The notes beneath the pieces are model-generated. The model ran no database searches, was not told the DNA's origin, and saw only the letters and a program-made list of their open reading frames with translations. From an uncultured Pelagibacteraceae bacterium (GTDB lineage: Bacteria > Pseudomonadota > Alphaproteobacteria > Pelagibacterales > AG-422-B15): a DNA stretch of 64,000 bases. Below, piece by piece: positions 11,727 through 33,308 of this stretch. Position 1 is the first letter of the stretch. The number at the start of each line of letters is the position of its first letter. The position numbers were made by a program, and so were the translations under genes. Where the stretch lies: positions 143,416-207,415 of the forward strand of contig CACCCN010000002.1 in assembly GCA_902544525.1 (NCBI GenBank), given 5' to 3'.

Positions 11727-13094
11727 ATGAAAATGAAAAAAGTTTATGTAGTTCATTGTATAGATTCAGAGGGCCCACTTCACGAGTCACTAGATGCTAC
11801 TTTTGAGAGAATAAAGCATATATTTCACTTAGATTTAAAGCCAAGTAAAGAATTGCTAAAAGATCTTCAAGAGGGAAATGTAGATCTTAATGGAGCTGAA
11901 GAATCAGTAAAGATGACACTTGATCCACATTTGCTTAATTATAACAATACCTGGAATAAGGTAGAAGAAATGCTCCAAGACTGTTTATCTGAAGAGTTTA
12001 GAAATAGATTTAAAGACTCAAATGGCGGTGGTTGGATTTATAATTGGCACTGTGTGGATCACATAGACTATGAGATGAATCCAAGAAGAAGAGATATGGG
12101 CTACCATAATATTTTTGATGAATATAAAAGAATTCTCAATGAAAATAATAGTAGTCAAGATGGATTTCATTTTCATTACCATCCTCATCCAATGATTAAA
12201 CATGCACATTTGTGCGCAACTAGATGGCTTGGGCCTACTGATAAATTATTTCAAGTTCTTTCAAGAAGAATAATTGATAGAAATTGGTTTCCTTCGGTAA
12301 ATAGACCTGGATTTCAAGTAAATAGACCTGATAGTCATTGGTTTTTAGAGCAATTTATTCCATTTGACTATGCAACTTTAGCAATGGAGCCTTCAATTGA
12401 AGATAATCATCAGTTTGATTTTTCAGCGGGTAGATCTGGTGACTGGAGAAGAGCTCCTATTACGTGGGTGCCATACCATCCACATCACGATGACTATCAA
12501 AAGATTGGAAATTGTAGAAGGATTATTACTCGGTGTTTAAATATAGGAACAAGAGCATATCTAATGGATGAAAACGAAGTAAGACGTGCTTTTGAAGAAG
12601 CTAAAAATGATAAACCTGTCATCCTATCATTTGCAAATCATGATTTTAGAGATTTAAGAGTTGATGTTGCTGAAGCACATAGACTTTTAACGAAAGTGTC
12701 CGATGATTACGATAATGTTGAATTTATATATTGTGAGGCAGTTGATGCCATCAGAAAATCAATGAAAATTAAAAACAAAAGTAAATGTGAATTTACTATT
12801 GATTTAAAACAAATTAGTAAAGGTGTAAACACACTTTCTATTAAATCATCTGTAGACACATTTGGTCCTCAGCCATTTTTTGCAATTAAAACTAAAACAA
12901 ATCAATATTTTCATGATAATTTAGATTTTCAAGTACCATTTCAAGAATGGACTTATACTTTTGATGATGAAACAATGCCTTTGGATGCAATTGAAAAAAT
13001 AGGTATTGCGACAAATAATAGTTATGGGGTTACTACCGTGACTAATTTTGAAGTTGAAAATAAAAAAGTTGAAAATTTTTTTTATAATCTCTAG
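11727..13094 (+). CDS. Divergent polysaccharide-deacetylase-like / NodB-barrel protein
   Basis: N-terminal VVHCIDSEGP; His-rich GFHFHYHPHP; ILSFANHDFRDL; location beside sulfation genes. Confidence 0.45.
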   Translation: MKMKKVYVVHCIDSEGPLHESLDATFERIKHIFHLDLKPSKELLKDLQEGNVDLNGAEESVKMTLDPHLLNYNNTWNKVEEMLQDCLSEEFRNRFKDSNGGGWIYNWHCVDHIDYEMNPRRRDMGYHNIFDEYKRILNENNSSQDGFHFHYHPHPMIKHAHLCATRWLGPTDKLFQVLSRRIIDRNWFPSVNRPGFQVNRPDSHWFLEQFIPFDYATLAMEPSIEDNHQFDFSAGRSGDWRRAPITWVPYHPHHDDYQKIGNCRRIITRCLNIGTRAYLMDENEVRRAFEEAKNDKPVILSFANHDFRDLRVDVAEAHRLLTKVSDDYDNVEFIYCEAVDAIRKSMKIKNKSKCEFTIDLKQISKGVNTLSIKSSVDTFGPQPFFAIKTKTNQYFHDNLDFQVPFQEWTYTFDDETMPLDAIEKIGIATNNSYGVTTVTNFEVENKKVENFFYNL

Positions 13095-13126: not shown

Positions 13127-13588
13127 ATGGCCCAAAATAAAGGAGTTTGGTTTTATGGCTTGTCAGGTTCAGGAAAGTCTTCTGCTTCAGAGTTATTAAG
13201 CAAAAAAATTAAATATTCTTGCTTAATAGATGGTGATATTGTTCGTAAATATATTTCTTACGATTTAAAATATTCAAAAAAAGATAGGAACATTCAATTA
13301 CATAGAGTATTAGGAATTAGTAAGATTGCCATTGAATCAAATATTTTCCCGATAATATCAACAGTTTGGATGAATGAAAAAATTTTAGCTGAATCAAAAA
13401 AATTTGGAATAAGGGTAATTAAGGTTAAAACAGATATAAATAATTTAATTAATACGCACAAAACTTATAAAAATAAAAAAGACGTAGTTGGGGTAAATAT
13501 TAAGTATAGTAGAAATCTAAATACAGAAACTATAATTAACAATAAGGACGAGGAATTTTGGAAAACTATCAAGAAATTGATTCGATAA
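13127..13588 (+). CDS. Adenylylsulfate (APS) kinase-like protein
   Basis: GVWFYGLSGSGKSSASELL (P-loop), DGDIVRK, followed by ATP sulfurylase. Confidence 0.78.
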   Translation: MAQNKGVWFYGLSGSGKSSASELLSKKIKYSCLIDGDIVRKYISYDLKYSKKDRNIQLHRVLGISKIAIESNIFPIISTVWMNEKILAESKKFGIRVIKVKTDINNLINTHKTYKNKKDVVGVNIKYSRNLNTETIINNKDEEFWKTIKKLIR

Positions 13589-14565
13589 CAAGTAATCAAA
13601 GGTATCTAATAGATTATGCTAATATTAAAAGTGGAATTATAACTTATCAAAAAAGTTTTCAAAATCTAGATCAGTTTTATAAAATTATAAAAAATCCCTC
13701 TCTTGGTTTGCCAATGCTTTTACCCTTAAACAACAGTTGTTTTAATTACAACAATTGTAAAGAAATATTTGCTATTGAACCTAATATTATTTCAAAAAAA
13801 ATATTTAATACCAATAATCTTAACTATATTGGTGTAAAGAATTTTCTTAAATATGGAAATACATTTTGCGTTGGAGCTGAACCAAAAAAAAAATATCAAC
13901 GACTAGTTTCAATCATTCAGAGTTTTAATGACTCACTAATAAAAAAAATTAATAAATTAAAAGAAGAGGGTAAAACTATAGGTGCATTTCAAACAAGAAA
14001 TATTCCACATTTAGGACATGAAAAAATAATTGAAAGACTTTTAGAAAAATGTGATCATGTGATAGTTAATCCGGTCTTAGGACCAAAAAAAGCAGGCGAC
14101 CTAAGAAATGAAATTTTAAAATTATCTTTTGAATTTTTAAGTAAGAACTTTTATCACAATAAAATCTCTTATATGCCAATTTGTGCAAACATGTTTTACG
14201 CGGGTCCAAGGGAGGCCTTACATCACGCTCTTTTACGAAAAGCCGTTGGTTTTTCCCACTTTATCGTTGGAAGGGATCATGCGGGTGCAGAAAATATTTA
14301 TGATCCTCATGCAGCACTTATGTTACTTGAAAATTATAAAAACAATATTGGTATTAATGTGATAACTCATAAGGGCAGCTATTTCAGCAAAAAAAAGAAT
14401 GAAATTATCATAAAGCAAGAAGATGATTTAGACACTGATTTAGAAAATATTAGAGGTTCAGATTTTAGAGAACATATTAAAAACAAGACTTATTTTAATT
14501 ATGCAAGATATGAACTTCAGGAATATCTATATACTTTAGGTGATAAATATTTTAATAATTATTAG
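13558..14565 (+). CDS. sat: ATP sulfurylase (sulfate adenylyltransferase, Sat/MET3 type); TTG start overlapping the APS kinase gene
   Basis: GAFQTRNIPHLGHEKII (QTRNPxHxxHE-like), GPREALHHALLRKAVGFSHFIVGRDHAGA. Confidence 0.88.
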   Translation: MENYQEIDSITSNQRYLIDYANIKSGIITYQKSFQNLDQFYKIIKNPSLGLPMLLPLNNSCFNYNNCKEIFAIEPNIISKKIFNTNNLNYIGVKNFLKYGNTFCVGAEPKKKYQRLVSIIQSFNDSLIKKINKLKEEGKTIGAFQTRNIPHLGHEKIIERLLEKCDHVIVNPVLGPKKAGDLRNEILKLSFEFLSKNFYHNKISYMPICANMFYAGPREALHHALLRKAVGFSHFIVGRDHAGAENIYDPHAALMLLENYKNNIGINVITHKGSYFSKKKNEIIIKQEDDLDTDLENIRGSDFREHIKNKTYFNYARYELQEYLYTLGDKYFNNY

Positions 14566-15914
14566 TGAGTAAAATCTTGGCAACAATTGGGCCAGTAAGC
14601 GATGGCATTAATGATATTAAAAAGGTGATTAATATTACATCTACTTTAAGACTTAATGGTTCTCATAACACATTAAAATGGCATGAAAAAATATCTAGCA
14701 GAATAAAAAAAATTAACAAAGACTGTAAAATTCTTTTAGACGTACCTGGAATTAAACCACGAACTAATAATCTTGAAAATATCAAAATTAAGCAAGGTGA
14801 AAATATAATTTTTAGTTATAGGACTAAAAAATTAAATAAGCTTGTTAAGATTATTAATATTACAAACCCATTGCCAAAAATTAGCAAAGATGTAAAAGTT
14901 TTTTCTATAAGCGATGGTCAGTTTGAGTTTTCTTTAGTAAGGCATGGTAAAAATTTTATTGAAGGTAAATCTAAAGAAACTTTTCTACTTCAGCCAAAAA
15001 AAGGGCTTAATATTCCTTTTTCAATATATGATGAAAATGCTCAATTTAGGATCTATTCAAATTTTATTAATAAATATAAAAAAGTTAAATATGATGCCTT
15101 GGGATTAAGTTTTGTTCAAAGTGCTTCAATTTTAAAGAAGATAAGAACTAAATTCAAAGATATAGTTATTGTAGCTAAAATCGAAAATTACTTGGGTTTA
15201 GAAAATGTTGAGAATATTTGCAGGCATACTGACCTTATAATGATTGATAGGGGCGACTTGGCAGCAGAAATAGGTAATAATAAACTTTATTCAGCTATTG
15301 TTAAAATATCCAAAACTTCAAAGAAGTATGGTAAGTCAATAATTATGGCTACTGAAAATCTCGACTCAATGATGACTAGAAAAACGCCTACAAAAAGTGA
15401 AGTTGTTGCATTAGGTTTTAGTTTAGGTCTTAATGCTGACAAAATAATGTTGAGCGATGAGACTGCAACATCAAGAAATTGGTACTCTGTTTTACTTTGG
15501 CTAAATAATTTTCTAGCCGTAGATCAATTAGAAAAAATAAACTTGCCTAATAATGATGACTTATTTTGGAATATTATTGAAAATCTTCCGATGGGAATAC
15601 CTTTAGTAATTTTTTCAAAAAAGGGAATTGCAATAGAAAAATTAGCTAAAATAAGAGATGGCATTGACTTAACGATATTTACTGATAATGCCAATACATC
15701 TACTATTTGCTCTTTTAGATCTAATGCAAAAACTATATTTATCGATAAGTTTGATGATAGTAAAAAGAATTTCTATATATTTGCAGCATTAAAAAAATAT
15801 AGGAAAAAGATTTTTGAGAATGCAAATGCTGTTATTGTAATATATATTTCGTATCCAAGAAAAAATTCAAGAGCAAACACTATTGCTTTGGTAGATAAGA
15901 AAGATTTTGTATAA
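14565..15914 (+). CDS. Divergent pyruvate kinase homologue (GTG start)
   Basis: KILATIGPVSD, LRLNGSHN, KIENYLGLENVENI, MIDRGDLAAEIG, ATENLDSM…TKSEV…KIMLSDETA correspond to PK signature motifs. Confidence 0.82.
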   Translation: MSKILATIGPVSDGINDIKKVINITSTLRLNGSHNTLKWHEKISSRIKKINKDCKILLDVPGIKPRTNNLENIKIKQGENIIFSYRTKKLNKLVKIINITNPLPKISKDVKVFSISDGQFEFSLVRHGKNFIEGKSKETFLLQPKKGLNIPFSIYDENAQFRIYSNFINKYKKVKYDALGLSFVQSASILKKIRTKFKDIVIVAKIENYLGLENVENICRHTDLIMIDRGDLAAEIGNNKLYSAIVKISKTSKKYGKSIIMATENLDSMMTRKTPTKSEVVALGFSLGLNADKIMLSDETATSRNWYSVLLWLNNFLAVDQLEKINLPNNDDLFWNIIENLPMGIPLVIFSKKGIAIEKLAKIRDGIDLTIFTDNANTSTICSFRSNAKTIFIDKFDDSKKNFYIFAALKKYRKKIFENANAVIVIYISYPRKNSRANTIALVDKKDFV

Positions 15915-16944
15915 CGCAAAACAAAATATAATGAAAAAATTTATAAAATCAGATTTGCAGTTATTAATTACTGGTTGTTACAGGTCAGGCACTGATTATT
16001 CTAGTGTCTTATTAAATAACCATCCAGACCTTGTTATTACAACTTATACCACTAGTTTTATGCGTTATTCATTTAATAGATATAACCCAATTCATATTAG
16101 AGAAAATTATATTGAATTACTTAATGAAGCAAAAAAAAGAATCAAAGTTAGATGGGGTAGAAATTTAAATGTAAAAAATATTATTGAGTACTGTGATCAG
16201 AAGAAAAAGGTAAATTACGCAATTCTCTATGATCTCATGATGAGTGATCTATTTCTTGATGAACAGGTAAAGAAATGGGGTGAAAAAACTCAATTAGTTT
16301 GGACACAAATTCCTAATTTTTTGAAATTATTTCCAAATGGCAAAGCTTTAAATATAATAAGAGATCCACGAAGTGTTTTAGCTTCTTTTAAAAAATCTAC
16401 ATACAATCCAGAACCAGCATATTTAGGTGCAATATTTAATTGTTTTGATTCAATGCAAAAAAGTATCCTTTATTCTAAAAAATATAAGTCAAATTTTATG
16501 TCTTTCAGGTATGAAGATATTGCCTTAAAACCAAAATCAACCTTAAAAAAAATATATAAATTTTTAAATTTGAGTTCAGATCATAATCTGCTAGATGAAA
16601 AAGAATGGTTAGATGCGTCTGGTAATAAATTTACACACAATTCAGTTTTTACAAATAAAAAGGCAAAAAAAGGTGATTTTGATTTTAAGGCATCAGTTTT
16701 TAGATGGAAAAATCAACTGAACAGTTCAGAAATTGCTTTTTGTCAATATGTTAATAAAGATATGATGAAAAAATTTGGTTATAAACTTGACAATAAATCT
16801 AATAATTTTAATGAAATTTTGCCAATAATATTTAATGATGAAAAAATTCATAAATACTTTGAAAACTGGCTTTTAAAAAATAAGGGGATCGAAGAATTTC
16901 CTAACGATCCATTAAATCCAAAAAATTGGGACGAAAATAATTAA
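15907..16944 (+). CDS. Sulfotransferase family protein
   Basis: LLITGCYRSGTDYSSVLLNNHPDL (PAPS 5'-PSB-like), LNIIRDPRSVLASF (3'-PB-like), FRYEDIALKP. Confidence 0.85.
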   Translation: MYNAKQNIMKKFIKSDLQLLITGCYRSGTDYSSVLLNNHPDLVITTYTTSFMRYSFNRYNPIHIRENYIELLNEAKKRIKVRWGRNLNVKNIIEYCDQKKKVNYAILYDLMMSDLFLDEQVKKWGEKTQLVWTQIPNFLKLFPNGKALNIIRDPRSVLASFKKSTYNPEPAYLGAIFNCFDSMQKSILYSKKYKSNFMSFRYEDIALKPKSTLKKIYKFLNLSSDHNLLDEKEWLDASGNKFTHNSVFTNKKAKKGDFDFKASVFRWKNQLNSSEIAFCQYVNKDMMKKFGYKLDNKSNNFNEILPIIFNDEKIHKYFENWLLKNKGIEEFPNDPLNPKNWDENN

Positions 16945-16970
16945 TAACTATCTAATCTAACTTTATTTAT

Positions 16971-17702
16971 ATGGATTATTATTTACTGCTTGGAATCATA
17001 ATAATTCTATCATTTATACAATCAATTTTAGGTATTGGCTTGCTAGTATTAGGCACTCCAACATTAATACTTATGAACTACTCATTTTTTGAGACAATGG
17101 CAATTATATTACCATCATCAATTGCTATAAGCTTAATACAAACAATAGAAAGTAAGGATAATTACAATAAATTTAAAAAAGATTTCTTAAAATATTGTTT
17201 ACCTGGTGTTTTAGTAAGTTTAATAATTATTTTATACATAAGTGAAACAATTAATTTCAAATTAATAGCTGGTTTAATGTTATTAATCTCAGGATTAATG
17301 AGACTTTGGAAAAGTAATTCTGTGATGAGTGAATTTATTTATACTAATAGTAAAAAATTTCAAATATTTATTGGTCTTATGCATGGGCTAACAAATATGG
17401 GTGGTGGATTTTTAGCATTATTCACCTCCTCAATATTTAAAAGTAAACAAACAATTAGATCAAGTATTGCCTATGGATATTTATTCATGGGATTATTGCA
17501 ATATTCATTTTTATTATTTTTTGTAGAGAACACATTTAGAAAAGATATATTTATGCTAATAATAATATCTCTAACTTCCTATTATTTTTTAGGAAAACCA
17601 ATTTTTAAATATATTTCAAATATTTTCTTTCAAAGAGTTATTACTTTAATAATTATAATTTACGGATTTATTATAATTTTAGGAGAATTTAAGTATTTTT
17701 AG
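16971..17702 (+). CDS. TauE/SafE-family permease
   Basis: Multi-TM; FIQSILGIGLLVLGTPTLILMNYSFFETMAIILPSSIAIS…LTNMGGGFLALF. Confidence 0.75.
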   Translation: MDYYLLLGIIIILSFIQSILGIGLLVLGTPTLILMNYSFFETMAIILPSSIAISLIQTIESKDNYNKFKKDFLKYCLPGVLVSLIIILYISETINFKLIAGLMLLISGLMRLWKSNSVMSEFIYTNSKKFQIFIGLMHGLTNMGGGFLALFTSSIFKSKQTIRSSIAYGYLFMGLLQYSFLLFFVENTFRKDIFMLIIISLTSYYFLGKPIFKYISNIFFQRVITLIIIIYGFIIILGEFKYF

Positions 17703-17775: not shown

Positions 17776-18744
17776 ATGTATTCTCAAAAATTTAATTATT
17801 TCCATGGAATAATGTTTCACCATTTTCATGATGATAGAATTTATAAATATGGTCAAGGCTCGATTAGTAAAGAAGATTTTATAAATATTATAAATTATAT
17901 TGGTAGAAAAAATATAATAAATGCGGATGAATTCTACTTAAAATCAATTGAAAATAAACTTAATGAGAACGAGGTTTGTCTTACTTTTGACGATGGAATT
18001 AAATGTCAGCATGATATTGCCCTACCTATTTTAGATGATCAAAAAATAAAAGCTTTTTTTTTCGTTTATTCAAGTTTATTTGACGGTAATCCTGATCTAT
18101 TAGAAGTGTATAGATATTTTAGAATAAATTATTTTAATAATATTGACGAATTTTATGATCTTTTTTTTAGTATTATTAAAATAAATTTAGATAAATTTTT
18201 TTTAGAAAATGATCATATTATCTCTTCTAATAGTAAGAAATTTCCCCACTATTCAACTAATGACATAAAATTTAGGTTAGTTAGAGACATGTTCCTTACA
18301 TCTCAAGAGTATGAAGCAATAATGTTTAAAATATTTGATAAATATGAATTTGACCCAAAGCTATATTATAAAAGACTTTTCATGAGTGCAGATGATTTAA
18401 AAAATATTGATTTTAATGGACATATAATTGGCTTGCACTCTCACAGTCATCCAACGCTGATGGAAAAGTTACCATTTAATGAGCAATATATGGAATATGA
18501 TAAAAATAGAGAAGTCTTATCCAAAATTCTTAAAAAAAATAAATCAAATTTTAAATGTATGTCCCATCCATGTGGTAGTTATAACGAGGATACTAAAAAT
18601 GCCTTATATCAATTAGGAGTTCAATTAGGTTTCAAACAAATTATGACTGTTGAAAAAGAGAGAAATATGCAAAAATTAAATAATTCTTCATTAGAAATTG
18701 CAAGACAAGATCATGCAGATATTATGAGCATGATGCAAAAATGA
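17776..18744 (+). CDS. Polysaccharide deacetylase (NodB domain)
   Basis: IMFHHFHDDR, VCLTFDDGIKCQHDIALPIL, AFFFVYSS, IIGLHSHSHPTL. Confidence 0.85.
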   Translation: MYSQKFNYFHGIMFHHFHDDRIYKYGQGSISKEDFINIINYIGRKNIINADEFYLKSIENKLNENEVCLTFDDGIKCQHDIALPILDDQKIKAFFFVYSSLFDGNPDLLEVYRYFRINYFNNIDEFYDLFFSIIKINLDKFFLENDHIISSNSKKFPHYSTNDIKFRLVRDMFLTSQEYEAIMFKIFDKYEFDPKLYYKRLFMSADDLKNIDFNGHIIGLHSHSHPTLMEKLPFNEQYMEYDKNREVLSKILKKNKSNFKCMSHPCGSYNEDTKNALYQLGVQLGFKQIMTVEKERNMQKLNNSSLEIARQDHADIMSMMQK

Positions 18745-19514
18745 AAATCACTTTATTCACTGCAGATAAAATAAGACATAATTATCTAATAAATTTACTT
18801 TCTAATACTTTTGATGAAGTTTTTGTCATTCAGGAGTGTTTTCCAAAAGTATCAGGTATAAATTTTAACTCAAATATTATAAATGAATACTTTAATAAAG
18901 TGAATGAAGCGGAGATTAAAATTTTTGATAACAATTTAAAAAGAAATTTAAATAGAACTAATGTAAAGATACTTCCTATAAATGGAGGGAGTCTAAATAA
19001 TTTAGATCTATCCTCCAAAAGTGAGTACTTTAGTAGTGATGCATATATAGTTTTTGGATCAAGTTACATCAAGAATGATTTAGTTAATTTCTTAATTAAC
19101 AATAATGCTTTAAATATTCACATGGGTATTTCCCCATACTATCGTGGGACAGATTGTAATTTTTGGGCTCTATTTGATAATAATTTACATTTAGTTGGTG
19201 CAACGATACACTATCTATCAAAGGGCTTAGATAATGGCAATATTTTATATCATGCTATGTCAAACCTTAAATCAAATCCTTTTGAGTATACTATGTCTAC
19301 CGTGAAATCAGCTTTTTATTCTTTAATAGAAAGAATACAAGATAAAAGTATATTTAGAATGCAGTCAATTGAGCAAGATAGATCAAAGGAGATAAGATAT
19401 TCTAAAAATATAGAATTTACAGAAGAAATATTAATCCAATATAAAAATCAAAAGATTGATCTTGATAGTTTTTCATTCAATAATAATTTACTAATAAGCC
19501 CATATTTTTTATGA
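18741..19514 (+). CDS. Formyltransferase family protein (sugar N-formyltransferase-like)
   Basis: NIHMGISPYYRGTDCNFWALFDNNLHLVGATIHYLSKGLDNGNILYH; start overlaps preceding stop (ATGA). Confidence 0.83.
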   Translation: MKITLFTADKIRHNYLINLLSNTFDEVFVIQECFPKVSGINFNSNIINEYFNKVNEAEIKIFDNNLKRNLNRTNVKILPINGGSLNNLDLSSKSEYFSSDAYIVFGSSYIKNDLVNFLINNNALNIHMGISPYYRGTDCNFWALFDNNLHLVGATIHYLSKGLDNGNILYHAMSNLKSNPFEYTMSTVKSAFYSLIERIQDKSIFRMQSIEQDRSKEIRYSKNIEFTEEILIQYKNQKIDLDSFSFNNNLLISPYFL

Positions 19515-19673: not shown

Positions 19674-21515
19674 ATGAAAAAAATTATTTTGAGTAGTTAT
19701 GAAAATTCACATAATAATTCTTCTCCAGTATATTACTGGAATGGATTTGGTAATTCAAAATACTATATTAGTAATTTTATAGAAAAAAATAAGGATCAAA
19801 TTAGAAATGAGTACCTTAAATTTATTGAAAATATAGATGCTGAAAAGCCAGGAGAAAAAAAGATAAGAAAAATATTTGGTATAAATAAATTTCATAATTT
19901 ATGGCATATGTCAGCAATATATGAAAAGTGTCCAAATAAATCGTTAGCAATAAATGACTGTATAAAACTAATTGCTTTTGAAAAAATTTTAGATATTGAA
20001 AATCCAAAAATCGTTAGCTTAGATTCAAAAAATGTAAATCTTCATAAGTCTATTAAAATACTATGTTTAAGGAAAAAAATCATATTTGAAAATAATTTGA
20101 ATTTACCATACTTTTTTTATTTAGATAGTAAAAGCTTAATACCTAATTTTTTAAAAACAATTATTTTTATTTTTAAAATATTCTTATCAAGTTTATCAAG
20201 GGGGAGAAACTTAGTTAATAATAACTTTGAAAATCATATTTCTTTTATTTCATATTTTATAAATTTTAAAATCAAAAAAGATAATGATAATACAATAAAG
20301 TTTTTTTCAGATTATTGGCATAATTTGCCAGATTTAATTTTTCAATATGATAAAAAGATTAATTGGCTTCACTTTGGCATTAATAGAAAGGCACCAAAAG
20401 AATTTAAAATATTAAAAAATAAAAAAGAATTGTTAAATAGTGCAAAAATAAGTCATTTACTTATTGATAATTATATTTCAATTAAGATCTTTATTCAGTC
20501 ATTAATTATTTTTTTAAATGTAAGTATTAAGTCATTAATTACTTTTAATATTAAAAAAATGTTTGATTTAAAGAATTCTAATATTAACTTCTATACATTT
20601 TTAAAAAATGATTGGATTACTTCTACTCGTGGCTCTCAATTATTTTATTCGATTATTATCATAAAGATATTAGACAAGCTGTTCTCGAAGATTCCCAAAC
20701 AAAAACTAGGATTCTATTTATTAGAGTATCAATCTTGGGAAAGAGCACTTATTGGTTCATGGAAGAAATTTAATCATGGAAAAATAATAGGTGTAGAGCA
20801 TACAAGTGGGTATATGAGATACTGGGATTTAAGATTTTATAAATCAATTGATTTTTATAAAGACACTAAAAATCTAAAATTTATGAATGATTTCACTTGT
20901 ATTAACGGGCCTAAATCAAAGGAGCTTTTAATTTGTAGTGGCTATCCAAAAAATAAAATCATTGAAGTTGAGGCGTTGAGATTTAATTATTTAAATAAAC
21001 ATATTGATAAGTTAAATCCTACAAATTTTAGTAGCAATAAAATTCTCCTTATTGGTGACATAGATTACATTTCAACTAAAAATTTATTGGAAGATATAAA
21101 AAAAATATATTTCAATTTAGAAAAAGATATAAAAATTTATTTTAGGCCACATCCAGGAACTCCTAATAAACAGATATTAATTAATTTTGCAGAAAGTTTG
21201 AGTATAAATATTTCTGAAAAGCCACTTATATCAGATATAAATTATAATGATAAAATAATAATAGTTGGAGGTAGTTCTGTAAGTATTGAAGCCCTTCTTA
21301 TGAATAAAACAACCATAATATATTTAAATAAAAATAAGCTTAATTTAAGTCCTATAAATTTTATTCATAAAATAAATTTTGTATCAAATAGCCAAGATTT
21401 ACTGAGCTCAATAAATTCCAACTTAAAAAATAGAAATAGCAAGCAAGAGTTTTTTTGGTTGGATGATAATTTACCAAAATGGAAAATATTTCTTGATAAG
21501 CAATTGAATTATTAA
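19674..21515 (+). CDS. Putative surface carbohydrate biosynthesis / GT-B-like glycosyltransferase
   Basis: YLLEYQSWERALIGSWKKFNHGKIIGVEHTS…FRPHPGTPNKQ…IIVGGSSVSIEALLMNKTTIIYLN. Confidence 0.6.
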   Translation: MKKIILSSYENSHNNSSPVYYWNGFGNSKYYISNFIEKNKDQIRNEYLKFIENIDAEKPGEKKIRKIFGINKFHNLWHMSAIYEKCPNKSLAINDCIKLIAFEKILDIENPKIVSLDSKNVNLHKSIKILCLRKKIIFENNLNLPYFFYLDSKSLIPNFLKTIIFIFKIFLSSLSRGRNLVNNNFENHISFISYFINFKIKKDNDNTIKFFSDYWHNLPDLIFQYDKKINWLHFGINRKAPKEFKILKNKKELLNSAKISHLLIDNYISIKIFIQSLIIFLNVSIKSLITFNIKKMFDLKNSNINFYTFLKNDWITSTRGSQLFYSIIIIKILDKLFSKIPKQKLGFYLLEYQSWERALIGSWKKFNHGKIIGVEHTSGYMRYWDLRFYKSIDFYKDTKNLKFMNDFTCINGPKSKELLICSGYPKNKIIEVEALRFNYLNKHIDKLNPTNFSSNKILLIGDIDYISTKNLLEDIKKIYFNLEKDIKIYFRPHPGTPNKQILINFAESLSINISEKPLISDINYNDKIIIVGGSSVSIEALLMNKTTIIYLNKNKLNLSPINFIHKINFVSNSQDLLSSINSNLKNRNSKQEFFWLDDNLPKWKIFLDKQLNY

Positions 21516-27995: not shown

Positions 27996-28115
27996 CAGAC
28001 TTGGCAATGTCCTACTCTCCCATGCCTTAAGACATAGTACCATCGGCGCTGGAGCCCTTAACGTTCGAGTTCGGAATGGGATCGTGTGTAACCTCTCCGC
28101 TAAAACCACCAAGTC
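27996..28115 (-). rRNA. rrf: 5S rRNA
   Basis: Minus strand GACTTGGTGGTTTTAGCGGAGAGG…CCGAACTCG…GGGAGAGTAGGACATTGCCAAGTC. Confidence 0.93.
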
Positions 28116-28205
28116 AACAAAACGTGAAATCAATACTAAAAAATTTTTTAAAGATTTAATTTATAAAGTGTTGCTTGAAGTGCATAGTTTATTTCTAGTA
28201 CATAG

Positions 28206-30948
<2,743 letters not shown>

Positions 30949-31069
30949 ATGTACAAAAAATAAACTTTTGCTTTTATTTTATGCACTTTATTAATTAATT
31001 GAATTCTCTAAAAAATTTTATTTTTAGTATTGATGTCACTTCACGATGTAAATGGAAAAGCTTAAAACT

Positions 31070-31145
31070 TGGTGGAGCTTACCGGGATCGAACCGGTGAC
31101 CCCCTGCTTGCAAAGCAGGTGCTCTCCCAGCTGAGCTAAAGCCCC
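31070..31145 (-). tRNA. tRNA-Ala (TGC)
   Basis: GGGGCTTTAGCTCAGCTGGGAGAGCACCTGCTTTGCAAGCAGGGGGTCACCGGTTCGATCCCGGTAAGCTCCACCA. Confidence 0.96.
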
Positions 31146-31164
31146 TTAAAAAACCACCATAATA

Positions 31165-31242
<78 letters not shown>

Positions 31243-31367
31243 GGATATATTCGATAGGCTTCATAGTTTTAAACAAATTGAAAGAGAAACGAGGACGGTA
31301 AGCTGTAAGAATTACTAAGTTAAAAAGTTTATAAATTTTGAAAACAAAATTCACAAACAACTCTTAG

Positions 31368-32852
<1,485 letters not shown>

Positions 32853-33308
32853 GTTTAAAAATGACATACACAAACTTATTGGCGGTTTTACATAATAAAT
32901 ATGTAAATCCAATAAACGTGTACGATTATATTGTACTACAGTATTACCGCCCACGTTTCTCTTCCAAATATACTTTTCCAAGAGCATAACGACAGACAAG
33001 ATCTCTAGCTGTTTTATAGCAAACAGTTAAAAATCTAGTTTATTGTTATTAGTTAGAGCCAAATTTAGCCCTTCAAACCGCAATCCCAGATCATCTCCAG
33101 AAGAGGGTGAGAGAGGTTTTATAGTATAGGCCTAATAAGTCAAGGCAGATGATATAGAATAATTAAAAAGAAATAAGACACTAAAATTATAAAAAAGTGT
33201 TTAATTACAATAACTTATTTATATAAAGAATTTTGTCGATCATTAGAAAATATCATTTTAAATAAATTTCTTTAAATATCTGAATATAACTTTAAAAAAA
33301 ATCAAATT

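Follow-up and report, generated by a model that had tools for sequence, protein, structure and literature searches.

Why would a marine bacterium place a pyruvate kinase (PK) gene among the genes that activate sulfate and a gene that would transfer it? The question is raised by a 64,000-nucleotide stretch of DNA (the window) from an uncultured Pelagibacteraceae bacterium (assembly GCA_902544525.1, contig CACCCN010000002.1, positions 143,416 to 207,415), in which five co-directional open reading frames (ORFs), all on the + strand, span positions 13127-17702, with overlaps of 31, 1, and 8 bp followed by a gap of 26 bp. This tight arrangement, including a TTG start for the ATP sulfurylase, had been described in an initial annotation of the window and was confirmed here, and the gene identities proposed there hold in Pfam. 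The five genes, which we refer to as the cassette, are as follows (APS, adenosine 5'-phosphosulfate; PAPS, 3'-phosphoadenosine 5'-phosphosulfate; PEP, phosphoenolpyruvate):

13127-13588, + strand: short APS kinase, CysC-like (153 aa, ATG start); predicted to convert APS to PAPS
13558-14565, + strand: ATP sulfurylase, Sat (335 aa, TTG start, 31-bp overlap with CysC); predicted to form APS from sulfate and ATP
14565-15914, + strand: PK of a distinct sulfation-linked subfamily (449 aa, GTG start, 1-bp overlap); predicted PEP-dependent ATP regeneration
15907-16944, + strand: putative PAPS-dependent sulfotransferase (annotated TTG start at 15907; the ATG at 15931 is probably the real start)
16971-17702, + strand: TauE/SafE (DUF81) permease; predicted sulfate importer

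Gene content and proposed function of the cassette

The reading we favor, and consider rather probable, is that the operon is devoted to making PAPS and transferring its sulfate to a surface polysaccharide, with the PK recycling ATP. TauE would import sulfate, which Sat, as judged by family, motifs, and fold, would adenylate to APS, and CysC, on the same basis, would phosphorylate APS to PAPS, releasing ADP. A PK of the K+-independent type would then use PEP to turn this ADP back into ATP, which would relieve ADP inhibition, pull the unfavorable activation of sulfate forward, and let PAPS accumulate. In the last step, the sulfotransferase would use PAPS to place a sulfuryl group on a sugar of the nonulosonate/O-antigen-type glycan encoded next to the cassette. 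The proposed coupling resembles an engineered in vitro cascade of PAPS synthase, pyrophosphatase, PK with PEP, and sulfotransferase, in which PK converts the ADP released by the APS kinase back to ATP, a reaction that PAPS accumulation requires; when PK and PEP are left out, ADP builds up and almost no PAPS is formed by the PAPS synthase (PMC9885120). That cascade is man-made and uses mammalian enzymes, whereas the cassette would represent a natural arrangement.

All five products score above the Pfam gathering cut-offs (APS_kinase, 43.9 bits; ATP-sulfurylase, 147 bits, E = 6e-43; PK barrel, 142 bits, E = 2e-41; Sulfotransfer_3, 60 bits, E = 5e-16; TauE, 55.5 bits, E = 8.5e-15), and the sulfotransferase also matches Sulfotransfer_1. 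The curated NCBIfam cut-offs are reached neither by CysC (48 vs 244, 44 vs 138.7-163, and 34.5 vs 127 bits) nor by Sat (170 vs 387 and 146 vs 323 bits), and the PK also falls well under them; the NCBIfam scan gave no match for the sulfotransferase and TauE. Because they pass in Pfam but score far too low in NCBIfam, CysC, Sat, and PK are divergent members of their families.

The shortness of CysC, which lies under all NCBIfam APS-kinase cut-offs, could be taken to mean that the Sat and CysC homologs work on a different oxyanion or produce a nucleotide-linked modifier other than PAPS; a CysC homolog is used, for example, in the methyl phosphoramidate pathway of Campylobacter. We regard this as highly improbable. 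CysC retains the P-loop GLSGSGKS (13157-13180), DGDIVR (13229-13246), and DRNIQLHR (13283-13306), corresponding to the APS-kinase motifs GxSGSGKS, DGD..R, and DR....R, and its AlphaFold2 model (pLDDT 92.5) matches APS kinases best in a fold search against the PDB, where each of the top 50 matches listed either is an APS kinase or contains a domain of that type; APS kinase activity is thus predicted. Sat, the only one found in the genome, carries intact ATP-sulfurylase signatures, QTRNIPHLGHE (13990-14022), YAGPREA (14197-14217), and GRDHAG (14269-14286), which follow the pattern QxRN.PH..H, GPREA, GRDHAG, and its profile best matches the Methanothermococcus ATP sulfurylase among solved proteins (E = 5e-52). 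Sulfotransferases and CysQ-type phosphatases also co-occur with these genes in related loci, as described below.

The sulfotransferase keeps residues of the PAPS-binding type, as originally noted: a motif resembling the 5'-phosphosulfate-binding site (GxxRSGT), GCYRSGT (15973-16002), and one resembling the 3'-phosphate-binding site (R-x7-S), RDPRSVLAS (16354-16386), which make PAPS its likely donor. Its closest solved relative is a tyrosylprotein sulfotransferase; the genomic context points to a glycan as acceptor. For TauE, membership of the TauE/SafE family is established by Pfam, and inward transport of sulfate is suggested by analogy with CysZ of Corynebacterium glutamicum, a DUF81 protein identified as a high-affinity sulfate transporter by mutant phenotype and likewise encoded with sulfate-activation genes (PMC1266029). 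The two are likened by family membership, and CysZ serves assimilatory reduction, which the cassette TauE would not.

PAPS-synthesis genes and sulfotransferases within one polysaccharide cluster are known from the loci for sulfated capsules of Vibrio sp. KMM 8419 and Cobetia marina KMM 1449, the latter also including CysQ and a sulfate permease; the sets described in the papers searched use CysDN(C) (PMC11641403, PMC11766843). Those loci rely on GTP-driven CysDN with no PK mentioned, whereas in the cassette the partners of Sat include a dedicated PK and a permease of the TauE family. The recruitment of an extra enzyme to overcome the unfavorable equilibrium has a parallel in the ATP sulfurylase-pyrophosphatase fusions of diatoms, haptophytes, and Phytophthora (PMC2275785), which remove pyrophosphate by fusion, whereas the cassette would recycle ADP at the expense of PEP through a neighboring PK. 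No description of a PK-Sat-CysC set was found in the literature searched, most subscription journals lying outside its coverage, and its novelty is unproven.

Linkage and identity of the cassette pyruvate kinase

A single-sequence Sat search of genome contigs gave no relatives and was replaced by a four-member PK alignment search of 85,488 species genomes, which returned 80 loci, among them a cassette in record NZ_LANA01000001, with the PK ORF recovered in 75. Sat is encoded within 5 kb of the PK at 52 of these 75 loci, a fraction that describes this PK subfamily and not all Sats, as the loci were gathered by PK similarity; CysC is found at 40 and TauE at 23, and the loci come from several phyla and some archaea. 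In 46 of the 52 Sat-bearing loci, Sat and PK are co-directional and within 100 bp of each other, and in 36 CysC lies within 1.5 kb. By comparison, no PK was present within ~1.5 kb of canonical Sat genes from the same phylum (0/30), and neither Sat, CysC, nor TauE was present at canonical PK loci from the same order (0/16). Given 46 co-directional loci against none in either control, the adjacency of Sat and PK is not due to chance.

The conserved core consists of Sat-PK with CysC and TauE. Sulfotransferases are diverse and movable. TauE homologs turn up with Sat-PK at loci of further SAR11 as well as SAR116, Stappiaceae, and Aquirufa genomes, but in many cases TauE is divergent or not encoded in the vicinity. 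The gene order on which the initial annotation had proposed a search thus proved only partly conserved: synteny of the gene set extends to other genomes, but we observed all five genes in this order in the genome of the window alone, and the order is not a conserved unit. None of the observations it had named as speaking against its proposal (complete assimilatory reduction, lack of synteny, loss of PAPS-binding residues) was made.

The PK itself retains its catalytic residues, and its AlphaFold2 model (pLDDT 90.4) matches solved PKs over the full length of the fold, including the C-terminal domain. None of the active-site residues R32, N34, D66, R73, K220, E222, R244-D246, and T278 (E. coli PykF numbering) varies across the 66 PKs counted. 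The subfamily shares the fold and catalytic residues of both K+-dependent and K+-independent PKs, and has the lysine at position 117 that characterizes the K+-independent cluster (PMC8835810). It does not carry either canonical signature, which would be T113/K114/E117 or L113/Q114/K117 together with an ARGDL loop; the window PK has V113/P114/K117 and DRGDL, and the subfamily displays a third signature (I/V/L113, P114, K117, DRGDL). All 66 contain PG-x-K-x-R and DRGDL, unlike both published PK clusters (PMC8835810).

Is this PK simply the only pyruvate kinase of the organism, parked in the operon without a functional link? It is the sole PK found in its genome, and the same applies to the cassette PK in four other small cassette genomes. 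Almost all relatives in the window's family, on the other hand, have no PK that we could find, the exception being the cassette-bearing genome G051, and a second, separate PK is present in cassette hosts of Stappia, Hongsoonwoonella, Aquirufa, Prochlorococcus, and SAR116. The two-PK hosts and the near-absence of PK in the family indicate that the cassette PK is not the housekeeping enzyme, and along with the conservation of the Sat-PK pair across phyla they effectively refute a merely parked PK as a general explanation, leaving it extremely improbable.

In a quick tree for which no root was inferred, the window PK falls into a marine clade of 27 members (SH-aLRT 100) from SAR11, SAR116, Rhodobacteraceae-like bacteria, and one gammaproteobacterial metagenome-assembled genome (MAG). 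Sat is present at 24 of these loci, one (L046) ends at a contig edge, and at the remaining two, both from SAR11, a 116-123-aa HxGH nucleotidyltransferase (GRFQPFHxGH...ISATKIR; L030:5086-5457 and L032:7646-7996) replaces Sat while PK, CysC, TauE, and sulfotransferases are retained. This small protein is a candidate minimal sulfate adenylyltransferase, and the persistence of the PK where Sat has been displaced supports the proposed role in sulfation. A second clade (n = 37) holds Sat-linked PKs of alphaproteobacteria, Elusimicrobiota, and Bacteroidota, and those of Prochlorococcus, a myxococcal MAG, a Parcubacterium, and archaeal MAGs lie near it or elsewhere in the tree. Nested in the second clade is a 13-member group without Sat, mostly with the gene order PK-TauE-AEC. 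The PK tree fits an old Sat-PK association with later losses.

Several observations weigh against our proposal. Besides the very short and divergent CysC discussed above and an unexplained redundancy with a second PAPS route described in the next section, a Sat-seeded view of the same order found a PK neighbor in only 4 of 12 cases and none in 8, most of the PK-less Sats forming a separate group, in which some are accompanied by CysC and a cytidylate-kinase-like gene. Members of the same PK subfamily also occur in three-gene operons alongside TauE and an AEC permease, where both Sat and CysC are lacking (L064, L077, L081, L073, and L060, from Pseudomonas, Enterobacter, Caballeronia, Rhodopseudomonas, and Acetobacter). 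Because such operons exist, the role of the PK need not be tied to sulfate. Lastly, the subfamily-wide replacement of the canonical Ala of ARGDL by Asp might alter the substrate of the PK.

The last two points would also be expected if the PK were not an ATP regenerator but had a changed substrate, or handled an organic acid or sulfonate together with TauE, in which case its adjacency to Sat would reflect other shared chemistry; Pro in place of Lys/Gln at position 114 adds to this case. We nevertheless find this explanation unlikely, given that every PK catalytic residue is invariant, that the PK persists where Sat is displaced, and that the group without Sat lies inside a Sat-linked clade, consistent with later loss of Sat.

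Returning to ATP recycling, a wider proposal can be made, which we advance tentatively and hold with less than even confidence: that sulfate activation for sulfation has a dedicated partner for energy coupling in this unnamed, widespread PK subfamily (PGxK..RT / DRGDL), which would draw on PEP where other systems couple through the CysN GTPase or through pyrophosphatase. The subfamily would keep this role where the 120-residue HxGH nucleotidyltransferase replaces Sat, and would have been taken up for surface glycans and perhaps also for flagella. That these PKs and ATP sulfurylase are linked across phyla suggests a natural counterpart of the ATP recycling used in biotechnology for PAPS. Culturable hosts of related cassettes (Stappia, Hongsoonwoonella, Aquirufa, and the SAR11 isolate Candidatus Pelagibacter ubique HTCC9565, which belongs to the same order as the genome of the window) open it to testing.

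Cassette relatives were found neither in viral contigs (PK search) nor in phages (Sat search). Plasmid Sat matches were rejected as relatives, being canonical Sat or Sat/CysC fusions of <40% identity. Another type of SAR11 Sat locus, without PK, is represented by L116-L121, with CysC in two, a cytidylate-kinase-like gene nearby in three, and a GxGVIG oxidoreductase. At L100:3168-4886 (archaeon-labeled MAG), where the PK gene lies upstream of Sat and CysC, and at L108:5437-7059 (Parcubacteria-labeled MAG), the PK is extended at its N terminus by a stretch whose sequence resembles a winged-helix DNA-binding domain.

Sulfate reduction and the second PAPS route

Modification instead of assimilation had been proposed from the window alone, and the wider survey bears this out. 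No sulfite reductase (PF01077) was found in the whole genome (1.26 Mb in 23 contigs, 87% complete) or in any of the 40 genomes searched, its own included, 27 of which are at least 90% complete. CysH is likewise not found in the genome, where the PF01507 matches are CysD and a sugar-amidotransferase-like protein. As neither component of assimilatory sulfate reduction was found, we dropped the assimilation reading: without genes for sulfate reduction, sulfate is not assimilated and nothing in the cassette serves cysteine synthesis. Published work on SAR11 agrees, reporting that these bacteria lack assimilatory sulfate reduction (PMC5069961). Sulfate cannot support the growth of SAR11, yet ATP and PEP would be spent on decorating the surface with it.

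The description of the operon as self-contained, by contrast, is not supported. About 60 kb from the cassette, a CysD with ~190 extra N-terminal residues adjoins a CysNC with an intact APS-kinase domain (L024:7509-10885, at about 93.5-96.9 kb of contig C2 of the same genome), and the cassette contains no gene for a pyrophosphatase or for a phosphatase of 3'-phosphoadenosine 5'-phosphate. CysD was found in only 5 of the 40 genomes. Since CysD-CysNC is also present, the cassette is a dedicated but not the only PAPS source of this genome.

Sat could in principle also run in reverse, converting APS from AprBA-dependent sulfite oxidation to ATP and sulfate, with TauE exporting sulfite or sulfate for detoxification or energy gain. 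AprBA is common in SAR11 strains and thought to detoxify sulfite (PMC5069961), and of the 16 genomes searched, 9 have AprB, most of them carrying the cassette. AprB was not found, however, in the window's own genome, at its 87% completeness, or in a 98%-complete congener, which weakens the case, and such a route has no role for CysC, PK, or the sulfotransferase and does not suit a setting among glycan genes. We consider reverse operation highly improbable.

Genomic setting and neighboring genes

The cassette, with its PAPS-synthesis genes and sulfotransferase, sits in a nonulosonate/O-antigen-type polysaccharide cluster adjoining an rRNA operon. NeuB-, NeuA-, and dehydratase-like genes lie near it (names read from the sequence), and further features are:

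17776-18744, + strand: polysaccharide deacetylase (Pfam Polysacc_deac_1), co-directional and downstream of the cassette
18741-19514, + strand: formyltransferase-like protein (Pfam Formyl_trans_N), co-directional and downstream
19674-21515, + strand: TIGR04326 surface carbohydrate biosynthesis protein (NCBIfam, 295 bits vs cut-off 250)
27999-32856, - strand: rRNA operon (5S, 23S, tRNAs, 16S; Rfam), bounding the glycan region

Just upstream, a 455-aa protein (11727-13094) has no Pfam or NCBIfam match and no homolog near other cassettes. The setting recalls HVR2 of the SAR11 strain HTCC1062, a surface-polysaccharide island flanked by 5S and 23S genes (PMC2217521), but in the window an intact rRNA operon lies on one side, and the HTCC1062 genome reportedly lacks sat (PMC5069961). 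The cassettes of L029, L038, and L054 are likewise a few kb from rRNA genes.

Sulfotransferase families are too diverse for regular expressions or single-sequence iteration, and they were counted by Pfam scans of flanking genes. Sulfotransfer_3 was found in 6 of 100 marine neighbor genes, and Sulfotransfer_1/3 in 7 of 87 distant ones, where it is the commonest Pfam class; two Inositol_P (CysQ-type phosphatase) genes adjoin sulfotransferases in L072 and L088. The usual company at marine loci is made up of nonulosonate, nucleotide-sugar, and CDP-glycerol transferase genes. The link between this PK subfamily and Sat offers a prospective genomic marker of sulfated structures at the cell surface, also for SAR11, which are among the most abundant marine bacteria. 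That the cassette serves a cell-surface glycan solely, as first suggested, may be too narrow: relatives' cassettes occur near flagellar genes, one SAR11 genome has its cassette away from any glycan cluster, and the glycan assignment would in any case be an inference from context.

In several SAR11 loci (L026:12159-13415, L028:11429-12604, L035, L041, and L045), a CDP-glycerol glycerophosphotransferase-like gene comes directly after the PK or one gene further on, which suggests a sulfated, glycerol-phosphate-decorated surface polymer. In six loci of marine alphaproteobacteria (L040, L042, L046, L047, L049, and L053), the PK gene is close to one for FliD, and some of these loci hold further genes of flagellar type. 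These PKs are 349-412 aa long with similarity over the barrel only, CysC and Sat are present in five of the six loci, and sulfation of flagella at these sites is possible.

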